Shown piece by piece: positions 4,226-34,131 of a stretch of 41,416 nucleotides of DNA (positions are counted from its first letter, which is position 1; every line of letters starts with the position of its first letter). Location: IMG/VR virus record IMGVR_UViG_3300017735_000025, positions 1 to 41,416 of that record; one strand, given 5' to 3'. The stretch is from a virus. A program made the translations under genes and the position numbers. The notes beneath the pieces were generated by a model. That model was not told where the DNA came from, ran no database searches, and saw only the letters and a list, made by a program, of their open reading frames with translations.

Positions 4226-4564
4226 ATGAACGAAATTCAAAGACTACAACAACTTGCAGGCATGCCAATCACAGAAGATGATTCTGTTGAAAAAACAGCA
4301 ATTGGGCATGTAGATAACGAACGTGATATGTTACGTAAAGATATTTTCCAAATGGGTAAATATTGCGTTGAGTTGTTTAAAATGGTTGATGAATTACCAG
4401 AAGATGCAGACTTACCTCATTGGTGGCAGAGCAAGGTTGTTAAAGCCAAAGAATTTATTGGACAAACTAAACACTATTTAGAAAATGAATTAGACGTGCC
4501 TGATCAACAACCTGTGGTATCACCTGATGTTGCAGACAACGAAGATCCTTCGGGCGTTAGTTAA
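4226..4564 (+). CDS. conserved small phage protein with N-terminal LAGM tag
   Basis: A 112-aa acidic protein starting one base after the previous stop. Residues 1-17 (MNEIQRLQQLAGMPITE) carry the LAG(L/M) motif also found twice in the upstream protein and once in the 409-aa late protein. The middle is helical (ERDMLRKDIFQMGKYCVELFKMV), then DLPHWWQSKVVKA, which is well conserved in related marine T4-like phages from memory. The C-terminus is disordered and acidic. Function unknown; the shared tag hints at a common partner or virion location. It converges with the minus-strand SGNH gene and overlaps it by 8 bases. Confidence 0.75.
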   Translation: MNEIQRLQQLAGMPITEDDSVEKTAIGHVDNERDMLRKDIFQMGKYCVELFKMVDELPEDADLPHWWQSKVVKAKEFIGQTKHYLENELDVPDQQPVVSPDVADNEDPSGVS

Positions 4565-5396
4565 TACCTAACTTATCAGCATACTTCATAATTTTACCCA
4601 CCATTTCCATCATCACCATTGCATTAGGATGACCGTTATCAGGGTATACTAATTTCCACAATGGATTCGGTGCCTTAGAAGATGCTAAATCATCACTAAT
4701 CATACCTATAACATCTTCTCCCCAAGATTCTAAGTGTACTTTCTTATAGTCGATTGTGGTAGCAAATCTAAAGTACTGTGGTTTATCTCTTAGTTTTTCC
4801 AGTTGTTTCTCATAGTTATTTGCAGTTTCCCAATTAAATTGTAGTAACCAATCATAGTACATTATGTGCGAGTATTCGTTCAATACTCTATCACATTTAC
4901 CACTAAGCGGTCCATGTGCGCCTATGATAATATAATGTGTTTCCGTTTTTGCGGCATGGTTACTTAATTTTTTTATTTGTTTTACTTGCTCGTTAGCCAT
5001 CCACTTGTTAACTGCCTCAGCAGTGGCTAACACATCTTTAGGTATTTTTGCTAATGATTCAGCATGTCTAAACATAAATGGTGCCATTACCACATGCAAA
5101 TCAGCATCTGATTGGAGATCACTGTGTGTAATCCAATCAACGGTTGTTTCTAAATCAATACCGGGAACGCCTCCATTGATTAATTCGTGTCCTAAATAGT
5201 TGAACACCATAGTATAGAAATCCATTGCTTCAGTATTGCCCATTGGAGATCCGTGTGTTTCAACAGTGTTGCCCATTGGATCAAAGTTTATAACGCCGGG
5301 TTGATTTCTTGCTAATAATCCATGAAAATGGTCTGAGTTTTCGTAGTGCCGAGGCCACAAATAGCACCAAGAGTCTCCGTGTAAATGTATTTTCAT
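4557..5396 (-). CDS. SGNH/GDSL-type hydrolase-like protein (paralogue 2)
   Basis: A 279-aa protein with MKIHLHGDSW at the N-terminus, giving GDS with nucleophile S9. Further in is INGGVPGID (about 92-100), which could be the block II Gly. DNGHPNAM provides D253 and H256, the classical DxxH pair. The full catalytic triad is therefore visible. Expected activity is ester or acetyl-ester hydrolysis; substrate unknown. No signal peptide or membrane segment is seen. It lies one base downstream of the GH6 gene, and this pairing suggests both act on the same decorated polysaccharide (inference). Confidence 0.75.
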   Translation of the reverse strand: MKIHLHGDSWCYLWPRHYENSDHFHGLLARNQPGVINFDPMGNTVETHGSPMGNTEAMDFYTMVFNYLGHELINGGVPGIDLETTVDWITHSDLQSDADLHVVMAPFMFRHAESLAKIPKDVLATAEAVNKWMANEQVKQIKKLSNHAAKTETHYIIIGAHGPLSGKCDRVLNEYSHIMYYDWLLQFNWETANNYEKQLEKLRDKPQYFRFATTIDYKKVHLESWGEDVIGMISDDLASSKAPNPLWKLVYPDNGHPNAMVMMEMVGKIMKYADKLGIN

Positions 5397-5397
5397 A

Positions 5398-6255
5398 TTA
5401 AATCCAATCTGTGTTTTTTACTAAGTCTTCTGCATACTCTGGCCAAAAACGTCCTGCTCTCGGGCCACCATTGCATTTTCCATCGCTTTCGCCTGGTATC
5501 TTAATCCATAAAAACGCATCACATCTTTCTTCATCTGTGCCGCATGTGGGCGGAATACCTAATGCACGATCGGGTGGGTTACACCAATCGTTACCATACG
5601 GACCATTGCCGTTTCTGCTGGTATCAATTACAAATGTATATTTGTCTTCTAAATTTTCGCAAACACGTTTAGCCCATTGCATACTTTCTTTAGTGGTACG
5701 ATAATTACTTACGTTAACACTAAATCCTGCTGTTTTATCATTGGCTACTCTGCTAAACAACTGTGCTGTTTCTTCTGGTGATAACCAGTTACTATGCCCC
5801 ACATCAATGTATAAACGGGCCTTACAAGTGCTTGTAATGAGGTCTACAGCACTTTGTAACAGTGCAAGTCGTTTATTACGCCCATTACGACTAATAAGTG
5901 TGCTATGAGGTATTGCGTCTGGTTCTAATATGAGTATTAGTTCTCTGTCGCCTATACACTTAGCCATGGTGTGTACAAACTCGAGATAATTATCTTTGCT
6001 TGATGCACCACCTTTACTGTGATGTCCCATATCACGTTCTGGTAAGTTATAGCATACCAGTATTGGCCAATGTGGATCGGCTCTGTGTAATAATCTGTTT
6101 AAACTTTTTGTTAGATGATCTGGGCATCCACCTTTACCGTTTTTCTCACCATACCAAAACGATTGTGGATATTTAAATATCTCACCTACTGTAGGAAACT
6201 TTACTTTATGATTTTTTACTCTATCAAAATCATTTACATAGAAAGGATAGTCCAT
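5398..6255 (-). CDS. glycoside hydrolase family 6 (cellulase/cellobiohydrolase-like)
   Basis: A 285-aa catalytic domain with most GH6 signatures in order: PILVCYNLPERDMG (64-77; D75), SKGGA, ILILEPDAIP (108-116; D113, the usual acid in EPD), ARLYIDVGHSNWL (146-158), AGFSVNVSNY (176-185), DTSRNGNGP (211-219), WCNPPDRALG (224-233), and DAFLWIKIPGESDG (246-259; D258). GH6 enzymes are inverting beta-1,4-glucanases. There is no secretion signal, linker or carbohydrate-binding module, unlike secreted bacterial cellulases, so it would act on an internal polymer or after release by lysis. The family assignment is strong; the natural substrate in a marine phage is unknown. Confidence 0.9.
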   Translation of the reverse strand: MDYPFYVNDFDRVKNHKVKFPTVGEIFKYPQSFWYGEKNGKGGCPDHLTKSLNRLLHRADPHWPILVCYNLPERDMGHHSKGGASSKDNYLEFVHTMAKCIGDRELILILEPDAIPHSTLISRNGRNKRLALLQSAVDLITSTCKARLYIDVGHSNWLSPEETAQLFSRVANDKTAGFSVNVSNYRTTKESMQWAKRVCENLEDKYTFVIDTSRNGNGPYGNDWCNPPDRALGIPPTCGTDEERCDAFLWIKIPGESDGKCNGGPRAGRFWPEYAEDLVKNTDWI

Positions 6256-6262
6256 GCACTTC

Positions 6263-6568
6263 CTATGAGAACAAAGGTTCTAATTCTTTGCTGGCATGCA
6301 TCTCAGTGATAATATCACAGCCGCCAACCAACTCGCCCTTTATAAACAGTTGTGGAAATGTAGGCCAATCGCTAACACTTGGTAATGTTGCACGAATGCC
6401 TGGATCAGCAAGTACATCTACATAACTAAATGGTTTGCCAACTTCGATTAATATTTGTACTACTCTTGCACTGAAGCCACACTGAGGACTATGTGGGTCT
6501 CCTTTCATAAACAAAATGGCTTCACTGCCATCTATCATTTCTTGTATTTGTTCTGCTATTGAGCTCAT
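6263..6568 (-). CDS. grxD: monothiol glutaredoxin, CGFS type (Grx4/GrxD-like)
   Basis: 101 aa, the normal length for a single-domain monothiol glutaredoxin. FMKGDPHSPQCGFS (20-33) has the CGFS active site with C30. DWPTFPQLFIKGELVGGCDI carries the conserved TFPQ cis-Pro region and the GGCD glutathione-binding motif. CGFS glutaredoxins bind glutathione-ligated [2Fe-2S] clusters and deliver them to target proteins. It differs from the CPYC glutaredoxin near nrdB, so the phage has two functional types. Its start overlaps the deformylase stop by 4 bases (ATGA). Confidence 0.92.
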   Translation of the reverse strand: MSSIAEQIQEMIDGSEAILFMKGDPHSPQCGFSARVVQILIEVGKPFSYVDVLADPGIRATLPSVSDWPTFPQLFIKGELVGGCDIITEMHASKELEPLFS

Positions 6569-7086
6569 TGTGTCCCCATTTGTGATTGCATTCTTTTAAT
6601 TGTTTTATCCCTTTTCTTTATTGCACGTTGTAACTTCATGTCACTTGCACCGTGTATGAAAAGTAATCCATTTAGATGTTCCCATTCATGATGGAAACAC
6701 TGTGCATCTGTGCCATGTAATTCTTCTTCTACTATAGTTTTTCCGTCACTTTTAGTGTACCTAACTGTGATGGACTCTGGTCTTGTTATGTTCATAAACA
6801 ATAACGGAAAAGTTAAACAGCCTTCTTCTCTGGCTATGTTTTTCTCAGAAACAGAAACTATCTCAGGATTGTATACCCCTATGTCTCCGTGTTCACTGTG
6901 CATCATTACGAACATGTTGTAAGTGTTACCTACTTGATTAGATGCAAGACCAATACCAAATCTATCTGCCATTAATTTAAGCATTGCTTTTTCGTATTCT
7001 TGTATATCGATATCTGTTTCAAATAAATTAGTGTTTGCAACAGAGTGTAAAGCAGGATGATTGGGCTGAACTAATTGTAATTCCAT
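6565..7086 (-). CDS. def: peptide deformylase
   Basis: 173 aa with all three deformylase motifs: GIGLASNQ (44-51), EGCLT (88-92; metal ligand C90) and HEWEH (133-137; ligands H133 and H137, catalytic E134). It removes the formyl group from nascent N-terminal Met. Phage deformylases are known in marine T4-like phages. EGCLT instead of EGCLS is a common variant. There is no Shine-Dalgarno sequence before the ATG. Instead AATAAATA at 7099-7092 sits exactly at -13 to -6 relative to the A of the ATG, the same geometry as several leaderless candidates here, although that element also overlaps the upstream stop. Confidence 0.93.
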   Translation of the reverse strand: MELQLVQPNHPALHSVANTNLFETDIDIQEYEKAMLKLMADRFGIGLASNQVGNTYNMFVMMHSEHGDIGVYNPEIVSVSEKNIAREEGCLTFPLLFMNITRPESITVRYTKSDGKTIVEEELHGTDAQCFHHEWEHLNGLLFIHGASDMKLQRAIKKRDKTIKRMQSQMGTQ

Positions 7087-10056: not shown

Positions 10057-10085
10057 ATTATAGCAAAAGTTACGGAGTATGTCAA
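10057..10085 (-). promoter_or_regulatory. sigma70-type promoter (TTGACA - 17 bp - TATAAT)
   Basis: Minus-strand TTGACA 10085-10080 and TATAAT 10062-10057, spacer 17. The TGA of the upstream SGNH gene (stop at 10084-10082) is inside the -35 box, as at 9063. Confidence 0.88.
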
Positions 10086-10786
10086 CCTAAAAGTATGTGT
10101 AAGTACTCAGCGAATTTTTTGTGTGCTACAGCACCTGGGTGCCAATTGTCTTGGGCACGTTCATACATGTGATATGTTTTAAAATGGTCAAACGGTTTTA
10201 CCTCATTCCATTTAAAATATTTTGAATGTTCAGTCCATTGTAGAGTAGAGTGTGAATCGGGATTATCTGTGTTTAAATCGTTAACAGCATCTGGAACACA
10301 TAAATGTATTACTCTATCAACCTGTGCATTTACTACATGATGTGTACCATTTATATACATTAAATTAGTTAAAGCACTGTCATAGTCGCTATAGAAATCT
10401 GTGTAGTAGGATTTAGCAAGACGCACTTCTTCATCTGATACATCTATATTTTCTTGTGTTAATAATTGATCATCAGCCTGCCAAGCAGAAATTTCTTTTG
10501 TAGGTGATGTGCTATTTTCAAATACACAATGTCTATCAAAAAATGTCCACATAAAAATTACCCAGTCGTCTTCTTGAAATTCAAAATCAACTGCTTTTTT
10601 AGCCATTTGTTTATTACTTTGTCCAGGATAGGAATAATTAAAAGTTTTACGATTTGTGAGATTGCCAAGTATTTGTGGGTAAGCAAATCTACTTGCAATA
10701 GGACCTGGTGCTCCTGTTCCTGCTTCATAACAATCTTTTAAGCCATGCCCATATGTAAAACTATCACCGAATGCTATAAGTCTCAT
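10082..10786 (-). CDS. SGNH/GDSL-type hydrolase-like protein (paralogue 3)
   Basis: 234 aa. MRLIAFGDSFTYG gives the GDS block with S9. SYPGQSNKQMAKK resembles the block II/III Gly-Asn region (GxxN). DNWHPGAVAHKKFAEYL gives D213 and H216. All triad residues are present. A WVIFMWTFFDRH segment parallels VVMWTTAQRH in the 26505-27101 paralogue, so these form one subfamily. It overlaps the glycosyltransferase gene upstream by 4 bases, linking ester hydrolysis with glycan synthesis (inference). Confidence 0.78.
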   Translation of the reverse strand: MRLIAFGDSFTYGHGLKDCYEAGTGAPGPIASRFAYPQILGNLTNRKTFNYSYPGQSNKQMAKKAVDFEFQEDDWVIFMWTFFDRHCVFENSTSPTKEISAWQADDQLLTQENIDVSDEEVRLAKSYYTDFYSDYDSALTNLMYINGTHHVVNAQVDRVIHLCVPDAVNDLNTDNPDSHSTLQWTEHSKYFKWNEVKPFDHFKTYHMYERAQDNWHPGAVAHKKFAEYLHILLG

Positions 10787-12622: not shown

Positions 12623-12712
12623 TGGCGGAGAGTGAGAGATTCGAACTCTCGGTACAGTTACCCGTACTCTTCCTTAGCAGGGAAGTGCTTTAAGCCACTC
12701 AGCCAACTCTCC
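12623..12712 (-). tRNA. tRNA-Ser (GCT anticodon)
   Basis: On the minus strand GGAGAGT pairs with ACTCTCC, with G discriminator and encoded CCA (12625-12623). The anticodon stem-loop is CTTCC CTGCTAA GGAAG, anticodon GCT, reading AGC/AGU. A long variable arm typical of Ser is present, and the T loop is TTCGAAT. Its first 14 bases overlap the end of the SGNH coding sequence. Confidence 0.95.
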
Positions 12713-13388
12713 GAATTTTATTAATAATGCTATCAGCAATATATTTATGTGTGTTTTTACCAGGATGTATACCATCACGTGCTTTACTATTACTCTTTAA
12801 AAAACGTTCGAGGTTTACAAAATAAAATATTGCATCATGTTCTGAACAAACATGATTAATTGCTAATTTGTTTTTTAAATAGGTAATTTCTATGTTTGTG
12901 CTATTTTGTGTTAACTGATAATATACTTCAGTGTCATGACCGGATTTAAACGAGTGTGCGGTCATTATTCCTGGCTGATGTAATCCGTCTTCTTTAACTA
13001 ATACTTCAAACCTACCATATGGTGGTTGTAAATAAACTACATGCTTAGGTTTTAATTTTGGAATCCAATGCTGTGCAAATCTAAAACAAGTATCTGGTGC
13101 CGCGCCTGGTTTAGAAATATTTACGTAAGAACAATTTAATTCTTGTGCAACTAAATGTGGAAATATTTCTTCTGGCGGCATTGCTACACCAAACGTAATA
13201 CTACAACCCAAAAATAGAATGTCTGTGCTATTTTCAAAATCATTGCCTCTAAAACCTTGATCATTAATTTTGTACCATTGCAATGGTTCGCCAGTTGTGT
13301 CATCGGCGCAATAATCACGTACAGTATTTCTAAATTTAGGATAACAAGAAAAATGTAATGGATTTATGTTCTGTAAATATCTTTTCAT
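12699..13388 (-). CDS. SGNH/GDSL-type hydrolase-like protein (paralogue 4)
   Basis: 229 aa. [14 protein letters not shown] (58-70) is the block I motif in its GCS variant, with S63. [11 protein letters not shown] may be block [20 protein letters not shown] gives D206 and H209. The central [13 protein letters not shown] replaces the WT/WTFF motif of the other paralogues, so this copy is more distant. Its last codons (RRVG and TGA) are read from the 5' part of tRNA-Ser. It sits inside the tRNA cluster, between tRNA-Ser and tRNA-Gly. Ester substrate unknown. Confidence 0.75.
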
Positions 13389-15427: not shown

Positions 15428-15476
15428 TACTTATACAAACGCATGGTTTAAACAACTTTTTTTGGAGTTAATACAA

Positions 15477-17015
15477 ATGGCAAACTATATCATATCAATC
15501 GATAATTCATTATCGGATTCAGACGCACAGGCGTGTATTACCGATGCCGGTGGTACAGTAAGTAGTGCTCTTGCAATCACAAATACGTACAACGCAACAT
15601 GTACAGCAGAACAACTTGCGGCAATGGCAAGTGTTTCAGCAAGTTCTTTAGATGAAGCATCTATTGATGTTGCTTTACAAACTTTTGACTCAGTTCACTT
15701 AGATGACTTAGTCAACTCAAATTACGAGATGGCTGGCGCGGCTGGTACATCTATTACACCTTATGCACCTGAATACAGAGGTTTAGGTGTTACATGTTAC
15801 TTAATCGATACAGGTATTAACATTGGACACGTAGAATTTGCAAGTGCTTCAATCAGTAACCTACACTCAGCATTCACAGAAGATGATGATATAGCAGATT
15901 TTGAGGATGAGGCTGGACACGGTACTGCAATTGCAAGTGTTATTGTAGGTGCTAATGTTGGTGTATCAACACAAACATCATTAAAGAATGTTAAACTATT
16001 TAATTCAAACTCAGGAAGTGCTACAGTAGGTGCAATCATAGGTGCATTTAATGCCGTAGCATTAGACCATGCAAATAACGGTGTAGAAACTGTTAGAGTT
16101 GTTTGTACTCCATGGACTGTAACACAAAACGATTTAATTGATGATATAGTTAAAAGTATGAATTCCAGTAACTTAGTTATGATAACAGCGGCAGGTAATG
16201 ACGGTGTTGATATTTCTACTAAATCACCAGCAGGTGTTACAGAAATCATAACAGTAGGTGGTTATAACAATCTTTGGAATGTACAAGCATTTACTAACAC
16301 ACCAGGTACTGCAACAGGGTTAACAAACTTTGGAGCACCGCTTGATGTATTTGGATGGAGTGAAGGGGCAACATTAGCCGATGCAGATAACCTAAGTGGT
16401 TATGCGGCATTTACAGGAACATCAGTTGCAACAGGTATTGCGGCAGGTGTTGCAGTACAGTATATACAAAAACATGTAGGTACTACGTCAGCAGGCATCA
16501 AAGAAGCAATATTGTCAGAAGGTCATATGAAAGGTATTGAACAATTACAATTCACAGGTACCGACTATGACACAGCCTATCATGCGATGCTTACAACATG
16601 GAACATTGCAGACGCATCATTATCAACTACACAATCCGGTAGACTTGGTAATGTACCAAACGGTGAAACAATGACATTTGATATTGGTTTAGATTCAAGT
16701 GCAACTGCCGTTGAAGTACTCGACTTTGCACCATTACCACCATTTATGGCATTTGATACATCCACAGGTATATTAACTGTTACAGCAACAGGATTATCAG
16801 CAGACATTACACCAGGTGTATTTGTATTTGCTGTTAAAGGTTTAATTGATGATGAACTACTTGTTGAAGAATTCTCAGTTGGTGTTTATGTAACAGACCA
16901 ATCAGAGGTCGACGGTGATACAGCATCAAGTTTCTACTACGATATAGACAATTCAGAGTATGACGAAATTGTTAACTATCAAGTAGCACCATCACCATCT
17001 TCTGAGAAGCCTTAA
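15477..17015 (+). CDS. subtilisin-like serine protease (S8) with C-terminal beta-sandwich domain
   Basis: 512 aa from ATG 15477 (GGAG nine bases upstream); a TTG 15 bases earlier is in frame but lacks a ribosome site. An N-terminal module of about 80 residues, starting ANYIISIDNSLSDSDAQA, resembles an I9 propeptide or chaperone. The catalytic triad is complete: D111 in CYLIDTGIN, H148 in GHGTAIAS and S316 in GTSVATGIAAG, with AAGNDG as the oxyanion Asn region. After about 385 an Ig-like/cadherin-like domain follows (PPFMAFDTSTGILTVTATG). A late promoter and the following PAAR gene point to a virion, probably tail, location. Confidence 0.88.
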   Translation: MANYIISIDNSLSDSDAQACITDAGGTVSSALAITNTYNATCTAEQLAAMASVSASSLDEASIDVALQTFDSVHLDDLVNSNYEMAGAAGTSITPYAPEYRGLGVTCYLIDTGINIGHVEFASASISNLHSAFTEDDDIADFEDEAGHGTAIASVIVGANVGVSTQTSLKNVKLFNSNSGSATVGAIIGAFNAVALDHANNGVETVRVVCTPWTVTQNDLIDDIVKSMNSSNLVMITAAGNDGVDISTKSPAGVTEIITVGGYNNLWNVQAFTNTPGTATGLTNFGAPLDVFGWSEGATLADADNLSGYAAFTGTSVATGIAAGVAVQYIQKHVGTTSAGIKEAILSEGHMKGIEQLQFTGTDYDTAYHAMLTTWNIADASLSTTQSGRLGNVPNGETMTFDIGLDSSATAVEVLDFAPLPPFMAFDTSTGILTVTATGLSADITPGVFVFAVKGLIDDELLVEEFSVGVYVTDQSEVDGDTASSFYYDIDNSEYDEIVNYQVAPSPSSEKP

Positions 17016-17287
17016 TGCCACAAGTAGGTGTTGTAGGAAAAGGTACATTTGGTCCCGGTGTTATAACTGGTCCTGGTGTACCTAATATTTTAGTAGAAGG
17101 AAGTCCTATTAGTGTAATAGGCGACGTAATTGCTCCGCATGGAGAAGCACCACATACTACAGCAACCGTATTAACAGGTTCGCCAACTGTGTTTGCTGGA
17201 GGTAGACCAATTAGTGTGCAAGGCATTAGTACTGCTATTTGTGGACATAAGTGTACTATTGGTGCTATTACTGTTCAAGCAACATAG
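17015..17287 (+). CDS. PAAR-domain baseplate spike tip protein (T4 gp5.4-like)
   Basis: 90 aa, a full single PAAR domain. Repeated GxPxISVxG turns (SPISVIGD, RPISVQGI) form the sharpened beta-cone. Candidate zinc ligands are H42, H47, C76, H78 and C80 (PHGEAPH and CGHKC). Such proteins cap the membrane-piercing spike of contractile tails. It starts within the subtilase stop (TAATG), so the protease and tip are made together; the protease could process or accompany the puncturing device (inference). Confidence 0.9.
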   Translation: MPQVGVVGKGTFGPGVITGPGVPNILVEGSPISVIGDVIAPHGEAPHTTATVLTGSPTVFAGGRPISVQGISTAICGHKCTIGAITVQAT

Positions 17288-26489: not shown

Positions 26490-26518
26490 ATTATAACACC
26501 TATTTTATATTTTGTCAA
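26490..26518 (-). promoter_or_regulatory. sigma70-type promoter (TTGACA - 17 bp - TATAAT), ATG at about +1
   Basis: Minus-strand TTGACA 26518-26513, TATAAT 26495-26490, spacer 17. Only five bases (TAACT) separate TATAAT from the ATG at 26484, so the mRNA should be leaderless or nearly so. The promoter overlaps the 3' end of the upstream SGNH gene. Confidence 0.82.
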
Positions 26519-27101
26519 GTAACGTTCGAGCTAAAACTTTAGCAAATTTGCTGTGTGTTTTAGGCCCTTCGTGTCCATTTGGACATTCATCTATGCATAT
26601 ATCAGCAGTATTAAATGCTGGAAACACATCTACATTGTTCCATTCTAATAATTTGTTTTCATATAGCGGAGTAGATAAATTATATATCCTGTCTCCTATT
26701 AAATCTTTAACATAGTAATTTGCTAATGCAATATATGTTGAAGATTCAAATACAGTATTATTACTGCTGTTAAAATACTTATAATACGACTCTACTTTAC
26801 TGCCAAGATCTTGATAATCAACCCTATTATAAATGTGTTCATATTCATCTGATAAAAACATGTGTCTTTGTGCAGTAGTCCACATAACAACAACAAAATC
26901 TTCTGGTTGAAATGATTGTTGTGTAATCTTGTGAAATATTTCTTTATTGCCGGAGCCACCCAAAGAACAATTTTTAATAGGTATGTTTAGATGTTTGCCA
27001 ACTAAATGGGGGTATGCTAATTCTGAAGGTTTTATATTATTAGTAGCATCTGCATCAAGTTCTGTTCCAAATGTATAACTGTCGCCGAAAAAATAAATCA
27101 T
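26505..27101 (-). CDS. SGNH/GDSL-type hydrolase-like protein (paralogue 5)
   Basis: 198 aa. MIYFFGDSYTFGTELD gives GDS with S8. CSLGGSGNKEIF provides block II Gly and block III GxxN (GSGN). VVMWTTAQRH matches the WTFFDRH region of paralogue 3. NGHEGPKTHSKFAKVL gives H177, but the Asp of DxxH is replaced in this alignment. It overlaps the next SGNH gene by 4 bases, so two SGNH genes are adjacent and co-translated. It may still be active if another acid serves. Substrate unknown. Confidence 0.75.
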   Translation of the reverse strand: MIYFFGDSYTFGTELDADATNNIKPSELAYPHLVGKHLNIPIKNCSLGGSGNKEIFHKITQQSFQPEDFVVVMWTTAQRHMFLSDEYEHIYNRVDYQDLGSKVESYYKYFNSSNNTVFESSTYIALANYYVKDLIGDRIYNLSTPLYENKLLEWNNVDVFPAFNTADICIDECPNGHEGPKTHSKFAKVLARTLLDKI

Positions 27102-27820
27102 TGTGCAATATGTGTTTGAATGTAGTCTCGTAAGATGCGAGCCAAATTTTTATGACTGCTAATACCAAAATGTTCATCAAAAGGTGCAACGTCTAATTGA
27201 TTAAACGGTTGTAATACATGTTCAAAGTTGTGCCATTCATATAGATGAAAATCAAACGTATCCTCTGGCGGCGTATTAGTGTCAGGATCATATATTTTGA
27301 ACCACGGGCCTGGTATGTGTATTACTGCTTTGCATTTTTGTTTAAGATAACTGTCTGCTATATATAAAGTTCTTTCTAAACGTTTGTGAACAGCAATCTT
27401 AGATTGGTACTGTTCGAAAAAAGTCCTACGGAAGTTATTACATACATTATCCTCGATAAAAGCATGATTCCATGTTGTTGTTCCAATTTCCGATGGGAGT
27501 GACATGTATGCTTCTCGATATGGAGAAGTCCACATTATCAATGCTATATCGTTTGGTTGAATATCATAATTGAGAATTTCGTCTAATATATCACAATTAC
27601 CGGTGCCACCGAGCCCACGATTATCGCTATCAAACGGAATTGGATTGTGTAAATCTGTTGATAGGAATGATGCTGTTACACTTGGATAAGCCTTTTTAGA
27701 GTACTCTCCTTGTGTGGACAAATGGGAAATATTTTTTTCTAAACCACAGCCTTGTGTAAAACTGTCACCAAAAGCAACTAAGCGATTACCAACTGATGTT
27801 CCATGTGAGGATTTGTTCAT
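27098..27820 (-). CDS. SGNH/GDSL-type hydrolase-like protein (paralogue 6)
   Basis: 240 aa from ATG 27820 (AGG six bases upstream); a GTG at 27847 is in frame but deeper inside the upstream gene. RLVAFGDSFTQGCGL gives block I with the nucleophile at S20. GLGGTGNCDILDEI holds the GxxN block III. ALIMWTSPYREAYM parallels the WT motif of paralogues 3 and 5. FDEHFGISSHKNLARIL ends the domain with the catalytic His. It overlaps the 106-aa structural gene by 35 bases. Paralogues 3, 5 and 6 look like one subfamily spread by duplication. Confidence 0.75.
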   Translation of the reverse strand: MNKSSHGTSVGNRLVAFGDSFTQGCGLEKNISHLSTQGEYSKKAYPSVTASFLSTDLHNPIPFDSDNRGLGGTGNCDILDEILNYDIQPNDIALIMWTSPYREAYMSLPSEIGTTTWNHAFIEDNVCNNFRRTFFEQYQSKIAVHKRLERTLYIADSYLKQKCKAVIHIPGPWFKIYDPDTNTPPEDTFDFHLYEWHNFEHVLQPFNQLDVAPFDEHFGISSHKNLARILRDYIQTHIAQ

Positions 27821-28106
27821 CTCCGGCCTTTTGTTTGATGTTGACACCGTACCCGAGATCTTTAAAATATTTAGAAACGTAATTTATTTGATCTAATTTA
27901 GTAGGATCGGTAGTTATACCATAGTATACTTTATAATAAGCATTGCCGGTCGTCATTGTTGTGCCTGTTGTTACATTTGCATACAATACGCCTGCATCTA
28001 CATTTGCAAGAACTTGTGCTTCAATACCACGTACTTCACTGTGTATAACACTGTTGTTACGAGTATCTGTTCTTGCCTGCGATGCTGTTCTAAATATACT
28101 TGCCAT
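27786..28106 (-). CDS. conserved small virion-associated protein
   Basis: 106 aa. ASQARTDTRNNSVIHSEVRG, then IEAQVLANVDAG, is a helical N-terminus, followed by a Thr-rich strand region (TTGTTMTTGNAYYKVYYG) and a C-terminal QILTWNISW strand. From memory this small protein is conserved in marine T4-like phages near structural genes. It is one base from the 111-aa gene upstream and likely shares its late transcript. Specific virion position unknown. Confidence 0.62.
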   Translation of the reverse strand: MASIFRTASQARTDTRNNSVIHSEVRGIEAQVLANVDAGVLYANVTTGTTMTTGNAYYKVYYGITTDPTKLDQINYVSKYFKDLGYGVNIKQKAGDEQILTWNISW

Positions 28107-32947: not shown

Positions 32948-33598
32948 TTAGTTTTTACCCGATTTCATATTAGCACACCAGTGATACATTTTTCCACGCT
33001 CACCACTATACTTCTTGGCTTTAGCACGAAGATCCGTTACCGAACCCTTGCAACTTGCACCTGCTTTTTTAACTCTACCCGGTCGGCTTTTGCCTTTCTT
33101 TTTACCATCTGCAAAGTTTTCATTTGCTAAACCTAAATTAAATAAAATATTTGATTTAGATCCCGTTGTTTTTTTAGGCATCTTCTTAACTTTTTTATCT
33201 AATGCCTCTTTCCACTTATCTTCCATTGTAGGTTGATCATCTGCTGTGTCGCTGTAATGATCGATAAGTTCTTCTATAGTAGCATCAACTTTAATTACTT
33301 TAACTGAAGTTAATTCTAAGCCTCGAGCTACATCATAACGATGATGCCCATTTACAATATAGTTATATTTATCAATTATGATAGGTCTTATTGTACCGTC
33401 ATTGAAGCCACGTTTTGCTTTATCATGCATGCCTTTTACACGTTGACTTTGTACAGGCTTTAATTTGTCTATGCTTATTTTACCTGTTTTATAACTAAAC
33501 GGACTGTCCTTTAAATTCTTTTTTCTAATCTGAGGCATCACACTACGTGGAAAGTCTTTATCTGATTCAGGTCTTTTGCCTAACTCAAACAGTCTCAT
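32948..33598 (-). CDS. ParB/sulfiredoxin-like domain protein with basic Cys-pair tail
   Basis: 216 aa. MRLFELGKRPE is a short N-terminal tag with an L-F-E site. ISIDKLKPVQSQRVKG and RPIIIDKYNYIVNGHHRYDV (GHHR at 84-87) are the ParB-like nuclease/CTPase fold signatures. The C-terminal third is basic, GKSRPGRVKKAGASCKGS then KMYHWCANMKSGKN, a Cys-pair module I recall from many marine T4-like phage proteins. It probably binds or nicks DNA or acts as a phosphotransferase; plasmid-type partition is unlikely. It overlaps the SOD gene by one base and may be co-packaged (inference). Confidence 0.75.
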   Translation of the reverse strand: MRLFELGKRPESDKDFPRSVMPQIRKKNLKDSPFSYKTGKISIDKLKPVQSQRVKGMHDKAKRGFNDGTIRPIIIDKYNYIVNGHHRYDVARGLELTSVKVIKVDATIEELIDHYSDTADDQPTMEDKWKEALDKKVKKMPKKTTGSKSNILFNLGLANENFADGKKKGKSRPGRVKKAGASCKGSVTDLRAKAKKYSGERGKMYHWCANMKSGKN

Positions 33599-34131
33599 TA
33601 CTTGATCCTCACATTGACTTTGTCCCAGTCAATTATTTTCCATATGTTATTTAGATACTTTTCTTTATCACTCTGATAATCAAGTGCCCATGCATGTTCC
33701 CACCAATCAACTAACACTAATATATCACTTCTCATTGCATGATTAGGTATGGTTTTTATTGTGCCGTTCCTTGCAAGATACACCCAGCCACTGCCTTGTA
33801 TACTCATTGCAACTTCTTTAAACTGTTCTTTGAATGTGTCATAGTTGCCAAACTTAGCAATTATGAATTCTAATATTTCACCATGAGGTTTATTTGCACC
33901 TGCAGGTTCTTTTAACTGTGGGAAGAAAATGTTGTGCAAGAATGCACCTGCTTCATTAAATTTTGCATCACCTTTACCAGCATTAAACTTATCTACGTAT
34001 GCTTTTGCAAGTTTACCAAAATGATAATCTACTGTGTCTTTGCTCATCACAGGATTTAATGCATCACGTTTATAAGGTAAACGTTCTTGTACAAGTTTTT
34101 GTTTTTGCTCAGTTAAGTTCTCAAGTCTCAT
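33598..34131 (-). CDS. Fe/Mn-family superoxide dismutase
   Basis: 177 aa. After an added tag (MRLENLTEQKQKLVQE) the SOD fold begins at LPYKRDALNPVMS. All four metal ligands are in place: H37 (VDYHFGK), H66 (FLHNIFF), D142 and H146 (VDWWEHAWALDY). The Gln at the FeSOD position is Gly62, and the MnSOD Gln position appears to be His131 (PNHAM), so the metal preference is unclear. It converts superoxide to peroxide and oxygen. The gene is embedded in a tagged late cluster, between the ParB-like and giant genes, suggesting a virion-packaged enzyme. Confidence 0.9.
   Translation of the reverse strand: MRLENLTEQKQKLVQERLPYKRDALNPVMSKDTVDYHFGKLAKAYVDKFNAGKGDAKFNEAGAFLHNIFFPQLKEPAGANKPHGEILEFIIAKFGNYDTFKEQFKEVAMSIQGSGWVYLARNGTIKTIPNHAMRSDILVLVDWWEHAWALDYQSDKEKYLNNIWKIIDWDKVNVRIK

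Follow-up and report, generated by a model that had tools for sequence, protein, structure and literature searches.

A leaderless, endoglucanase-like GH6 gene in a widespread clade of uncultured phages

A leaderless GH6 endoglucanase-like gene was located in viral DNA (IMG/VR record IMGVR_UViG_3300017735_000025, positions 1 to 41,416; this whole stretch of 41,416 nucleotides is referred to as the window). The gene occupies 5398..6255 (minus strand); its product has 285 aa. With moderate confidence, it is explained as a catalytically competent single-domain GH6 endo-beta-1,4-glucanase from a long-established phage clade, which would be adapted to the cytosol and likely set free when the cell lyses, to act on bacterial cellulose or a comparable beta-glucan. 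Family, fold, clade, selection, losses and deformylase coupling were computed; activity, substrate, host, timing and release at lysis we infer. GH6 genes in viruses are already known. New here are the clade, its loss of leader and disulfides, and the coupling to a deformylase gene, for none of which literature was found among open-access papers.

An earlier note on this DNA had placed an open reading frame at 5398-6255 and assigned it to GH6. The coordinates stand; the strand, which the note had not given, is minus, and the plus strand of this interval contains stops throughout. All motifs that it had named are there (EPD at residues 111-113, DTSRNG at 211-216, NPPDRALG at 226-233 and WIKIPGESDG at 250-259), and its numbering of D75, D113 and D258 is correct. 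GH6 identity was borne out by Pfam PF01341, PDB sequence matches and the predicted fold (AlphaFold2, Foldseek/VIA), with conservation as a further line. PF01341 (Glyco_hydro_6) matched the protein with E 3.7e-52 and 178.5 bits (cut-off 27), covering profile positions 18-300 of 305; judged by its score, the match is far beyond chance. Closest solved relatives in the PDB sequence search were Cel6 of M. tuberculosis (E ~1e-52) and T. fusca (E ~1e-48). No matching family for the protein was obtained in PHROGs or NCBIfam.

An AlphaFold2 model built on 56 relatives reached pLDDT 94.2 and pTM 0.93. Structurally the model came closest to 1up0, 1uoz and 1tml, all endoglucanases, with Z 36-37 and rmsd 2.0 over 273-279 residues; the top matches were without exception GH6 or GH6-derived structures, as is found for members with the distorted alpha/beta barrel of this family. 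When the BFVD structure library was searched with the model, no GH6 relative was among the matches listed. Comparison with endoglucanase 1tml gave TM ~0.88 in both directions. Tunnel exocellulases were matched with TMt of about 0.5-0.66 and left long insertions unmatched; for Cel6B (4b4h, 413 residues), TMt was 0.54. Together with the length of 285 aa, these values therefore point to an endoglucanase-type GH6. By size and nearest structures, the modelled enzyme is of the open-cleft type and not a tunnel cellobiohydrolase, the tunnel-closing loop insertions being absent from the prediction. Where the earlier note spoke of an active-site tunnel, a cleft has to be read. In fold, length, catalytic residues and substrate tryptophans, the protein resembles T. 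fusca Cel6A (1tml) and M. tuberculosis Cel6 (1up0/1uoz).

Predicted catalytic residues are D75, D113 (acid), D151, E256 and D258, and predicted substrate tryptophans are W34, W157 and W224. All five catalytic residues were unchanged in 66/66 distinct viral sequences. For comparison with TfCel6A, residues were mapped via an alignment and named by the numbering of that enzyme. The equivalents of Y73, D79, the EPD glutamate, D117, D156, K259, E263 and D265 are present in the window protein and invariant in all 66 viral sequences, as are the tryptophans equivalent to W41 and W162; D156 and W162 fall in a search pattern with which the set was collected, so that their invariance is partly by construction. 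D79, D117, K259, E263 and D265 lie outside these patterns. The equivalent of W231 is kept in 63/66. Median dN/dS was 0.116 over 112 pairs picked for unsaturated synonymous change, which indicates purifying selection (L087 was left out, its reading frame not fitting). From the intact catalytic set, the viral GH6 enzymes are inferred to be catalytically competent. The copy L087:2086-2937 is interrupted by an in-frame stop close to where its match ends, either a truncation or a sequencing error.

Fold and catalytic residues might also have been kept for a natural substrate other than cellulose, for instance another beta-linked glucan or a modified glycan. Glycosyltransferase-like genes occur near GH6 in many loci and would fit such a change, but the invariance of the substrate-contact tryptophans W41 and W162, and the retention of W231 in nearly all sequences, speak against it, and we consider it very unlikely.

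To collect viral relatives, IMG/VR was scanned with an alignment of 20 relatives as query. At least 160 GH6 loci on IMG/VR contigs were confirmed. Among the 80 matches listed, identity was mostly 51-66%, about 41-45% for the farthest, and one record carried an identical protein. Cellular relatives in GTDB genomes reached about 47% identity at best. In a tree of 93 rows, the 35 viral rows all fell to the same side of a long-stemmed branch (SH-aLRT 96); on this tree, the compared viral sequences form a single clade apart from cellular GH6. The GenBank phage collection held only two distinct GH6 records, both distant (~35%), from Streptomyces phage Gilgamesh and an unverified faecal contig. By these searches, the clade is widespread among uncultured phages, and no isolate of the GenBank phage collection has it. 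Besides GH6, the window record carries ribonucleotide reductase, a phage exonuclease and weak virion structural matches.

Contamination with host DNA was rejected because 160 viral loci were confirmed and, as far as compared, share their synteny and make up a clade of their own. The homologue search proposed in the earlier note has thus upheld a phage-borne gene; the marine setting it had assumed is not something that the sequence can tell. Kinship of the phages was also considered for the host. A gp23 match was found in only 2/40 relative-bearing records. One of these, a 340-kb record, is a jumbo phage contig with GH6 (locus L052, record G014), whose gp23 is 70% identical to that of PA5oct-like Pseudomonas jumbo phages, with other jumbo phages such as GAP32 next. 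This gp23 does not fix the host of the window, and the window NrdA, 62% identical to that of Stenotrophomonas phage DLP_6, is not decisive either. A psbA/psbD family match, as a sign of cyanophage identity, was obtained in 0/40 relative-bearing records, a weak test on records that are fragments.

The N-terminal signal or lipoprotein leader of secreted GH6 enzymes was not found in the viral clade. In a hydropathy test (not a signal-peptide predictor), a strongly hydrophobic leader was missing in 79/80 viral loci, and most viral GH6 open reading frames meet a stop codon within 1-22 codons upstream of the start. The sole exception (L045) has a putative upstream extension for which a start of its own is not established. 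By the same kind of test, 74/78 cellular relatives have a strong hydrophobic stretch 5' of the GH6 domain, and of the remaining four, three or more likewise seem to have a leader on inspection by eye. The lack of a secretion signal claimed in the earlier note thus extends to the relatives: the stops lie 1-22 codons upstream in most of them, and nearly all viral loci are without such a leader.

The two-disulfide pattern of secreted GH6 enzymes was not found in the viral clade either. In TfCel6A, the disulfides are C80-C125 and C232-C267. An equivalent of C80 was present in 0/66 viral versus 77/79 cellular sequences, and a cysteine in the C125 region in 0/66 versus 68/79, so that the first pair is found in none of the 66 viral sequences. 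A cysteine in the C267 region, the partner in the second disulfide, was present in 15/66 viral sequences (lost in 51/66) versus 79/79 cellular ones. C80, C125 and C267 lie outside every search pattern used for collecting the set. The window protein retains C225 and C261, and a second disulfide may be possible there. Unlike T. fusca Cel6A and M. tuberculosis Cel6, the phage enzyme has neither a C80-C125 equivalent nor a signal peptide, and its clade has usually lost the second disulfide partner. The first disulfide is also absent in two leaderless GH6 proteins outside the clade, Gilgamesh gp72 and a protein of a Pacebacteria MAG (L186). Gilgamesh gp72 is likewise a leaderless phage GH6, but it is 35% identical, has 444 aa with an extra N-terminal domain, and lies in another gene context.

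The best explanation for a viral clade that lacks an export signal and is largely disulfide-free would be adaptation for folding in the reducing cytoplasm; as one part of the joint reading with the deformylase set out below, this adaptation is held with moderate confidence. Disulfide loss tells where a protein folds, not where it acts. Both traits would also fit action inside the cell, for instance on nascent beta-glucan at the inner face of a cellulose synthase or on a cytosolic beta-glucan, whereby synthesis would be stopped or sugar freed. The nearest cellular row of the tree, the leaderless Pacebacteria GH6, adjoins a GT2-type synthase-like gene and a gene for a GH8-containing protein, but with a very long branch (1.74) this row is not securely placed. 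Moreover, cellulose is extruded while it is made, and little is normally accessible in the cytosol. Intracellular action is considered quite unlikely. In the Pacebacteria MAG (L186:4983-10642), the GT2-type synthase-like gene, a PMT-GH8 fusion and the leaderless GH6 stand in a row and may constitute a cellular locus for exopolysaccharide whose GH6 is intracellular.

Viral GH6 genes have been entered in lists of AMGs from Mariana Trench sediments and the Aral Sea basin (PMC8725595, PMC9948696). The available descriptions in these reports share with the present case the family GH6 on viral contigs, and in them no mention is made of a missing leader, disulfide loss or deformylase coupling. In the AMG reading, which both studies adopted for their GH6 genes, the phage would boost host breakdown of environmental cellulose for carbon during infection. 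For the present clade this fits poorly because the enzyme has no evident exit route from a cell that is still alive: without an export signal it is not expected at external cellulose while the cell lives, and the cellular relatives mostly have a leader and have kept their disulfides. We regard it as highly improbable here.

For the gene neighbourhood, proteins of 80 relative loci were clustered by similarity. The conserved upstream partner of GH6 is a peptide deformylase gene, which in the window lies at 6565..7086 on the minus strand (173 aa, PF01327 2.7e-31). A same-strand deformylase gene was found at position -1 or -2 of GH6 in 59/75 testable loci, and in 43/52 after removal of near-copies. 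Where the two genes are directly adjacent, their junction measures -23 to +8 nt, and translational coupling of GH6 to the deformylase is therefore suggested. No annotated GH6 gene adjoins the deformylase genes of the isolate phages Phosso, DLP_6 and Mosig. Looked for as a sign of timing, the T4-type late promoter TATAAATA was not in excess in the window and was found upstream of 3/59 deformylase genes, which gives no evidence of late expression.

In the window, a gene for a Grx4-type monothiol glutaredoxin (6263..6568, minus strand; PF00462 1.5e-19; TIGR00365 133.9 bits, cut-off 117.1) lies between deformylase and GH6, and 1 nt downstream of GH6 follows a gene for an SGNH-like protein of 279 aa, recognised by a GDSW motif near its N-terminus (4557..5396, minus strand). 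The accessory operon proposed in the earlier note is thus present in the window with all three neighbours, but only the deformylase is conserved elsewhere. Glutaredoxin was found near GH6 in about 9/80 loci, and the SGNH-like gene within three genes of GH6 in about 7/80 (at +1 in 3/80). Since this neighbour is rare, an esterase cannot serve to infer the substrate, and the deformylase itself does not point to a polysaccharide. The SGNH-like protein gave no match in Pfam, PHROGs or NCBIfam and no tblastn match in 50,697 phage records. Gene maps downstream of GH6 vary, with either a convergent gene of 112 aa or oxygenase-like genes. The convergent gene encodes an 'LQQLAG' protein (4226..4564, plus strand), marks the syntenic locus and was found downstream of GH6 in 64/80 loci.

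Further genes of the window were recorded alongside. Six proteins with a GDS/SGNH-like or similar motif near the N-terminus are encoded within 41 kb, an unusual density of esterase-like genes (576-1343 on the plus strand; 4557-5396, 10082-10786, 12699-13388, 26505-27101 and 27098-27847 on the minus strand); among them, only 10082-10786 exceeded a Pfam cut-off (Lipase_GDSL). A subtilase-family protease gene (15462-17015, plus strand) is directly followed by a PAAR-motif gene (17015-17287, plus strand). A gene for a ParB-like domain protein with PHROG matches (32948-33598, minus strand) and a gene for an Fe/Mn superoxide dismutase (33598-34131, minus strand; Sod_Fe_C 8.4e-25) were also found in this phage record.

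From these data, the following course is proposed for release at lysis. In the infected bacterium, GH6 would be translated close behind the peptide deformylase and would fold in the reducing cytoplasm without need of the lost disulfides. Lacking an export signal, it would stay in the cytosol, and cell lysis would most likely bring it to its substrate. There the enzyme would act on the matrix that surrounds the host and neighbouring cells, cleaving its bacterial cellulose or some other beta-1,4-glucan through the inverting mechanism of GH6, and progeny could thereby escape or reach new cells. Release at lysis, which the earlier note had raised, is a plausible route given the missing leader. The window GH6 bears neither a cellulose-binding module nor a tail domain, and no lysis gene was recognised nearby.

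A virion component would be leaderless as well, and GH6 might thus be a depolymerase packaged on or in the particle, which clears or recognises host-surface cellulose before injection. This is what has been proposed for the cellulases of Erwinia phage S6, a precedent for phage attack on host cellulose: infection by S6 needs cellulose as the first receptor, and its GH5 enzyme gp095 was verified to degrade carboxymethylcellulose (PMC9544554). The S6 enzymes gp095 and gp094 (GH48) are phage cellulases like the present one and are aimed at bacterial cellulose, but they belong to other GH families, are multi-domain and are proposed to be particle-attached (PMC9544554). The Gilgamesh GH6 also bears an extra N-terminal domain, of about 150 aa. 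In the clade, however, nothing but the catalytic domain is encoded (open frames of about 279-324 aa), with no fibre or anchoring domain added, and the surrounding genes, which include deformylase and glutaredoxin as well as glycosyltransferase-like and oxygenase-like ones, are not recognised as tail genes. Packaging in the particle is judged unlikely.

With release at lysis as the preferred route, a wider and more tentative reading can be put forward. A widespread lineage of large T4-like phages might use a deformylase-GH6 cassette, intracellular or timed to lysis, against bacterial cellulose. Its cellulase would have evolved for the cytosol by removal of leader and disulfides and would not be a classical metabolic helper; this combination we hold as possible, though doubtful as a whole.

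Viral cellulases usually enter lists of AMGs, as aids to the host in digesting material from plants or algae; the present clade speaks against this view. An enzyme that lacks a leader and the usual disulfides is not likely to work for a living host beyond its cell boundary, and its likely target is therefore either a polymer within the cell or, at lysis, the matrix of the host itself. Examination for leader and disulfides is simple and can be applied to other viral hydrolases called AMGs. The clade also offers GH6 enzymes that are largely free of disulfides by nature, which is of use where expression in the bacterial cytoplasm is wanted.
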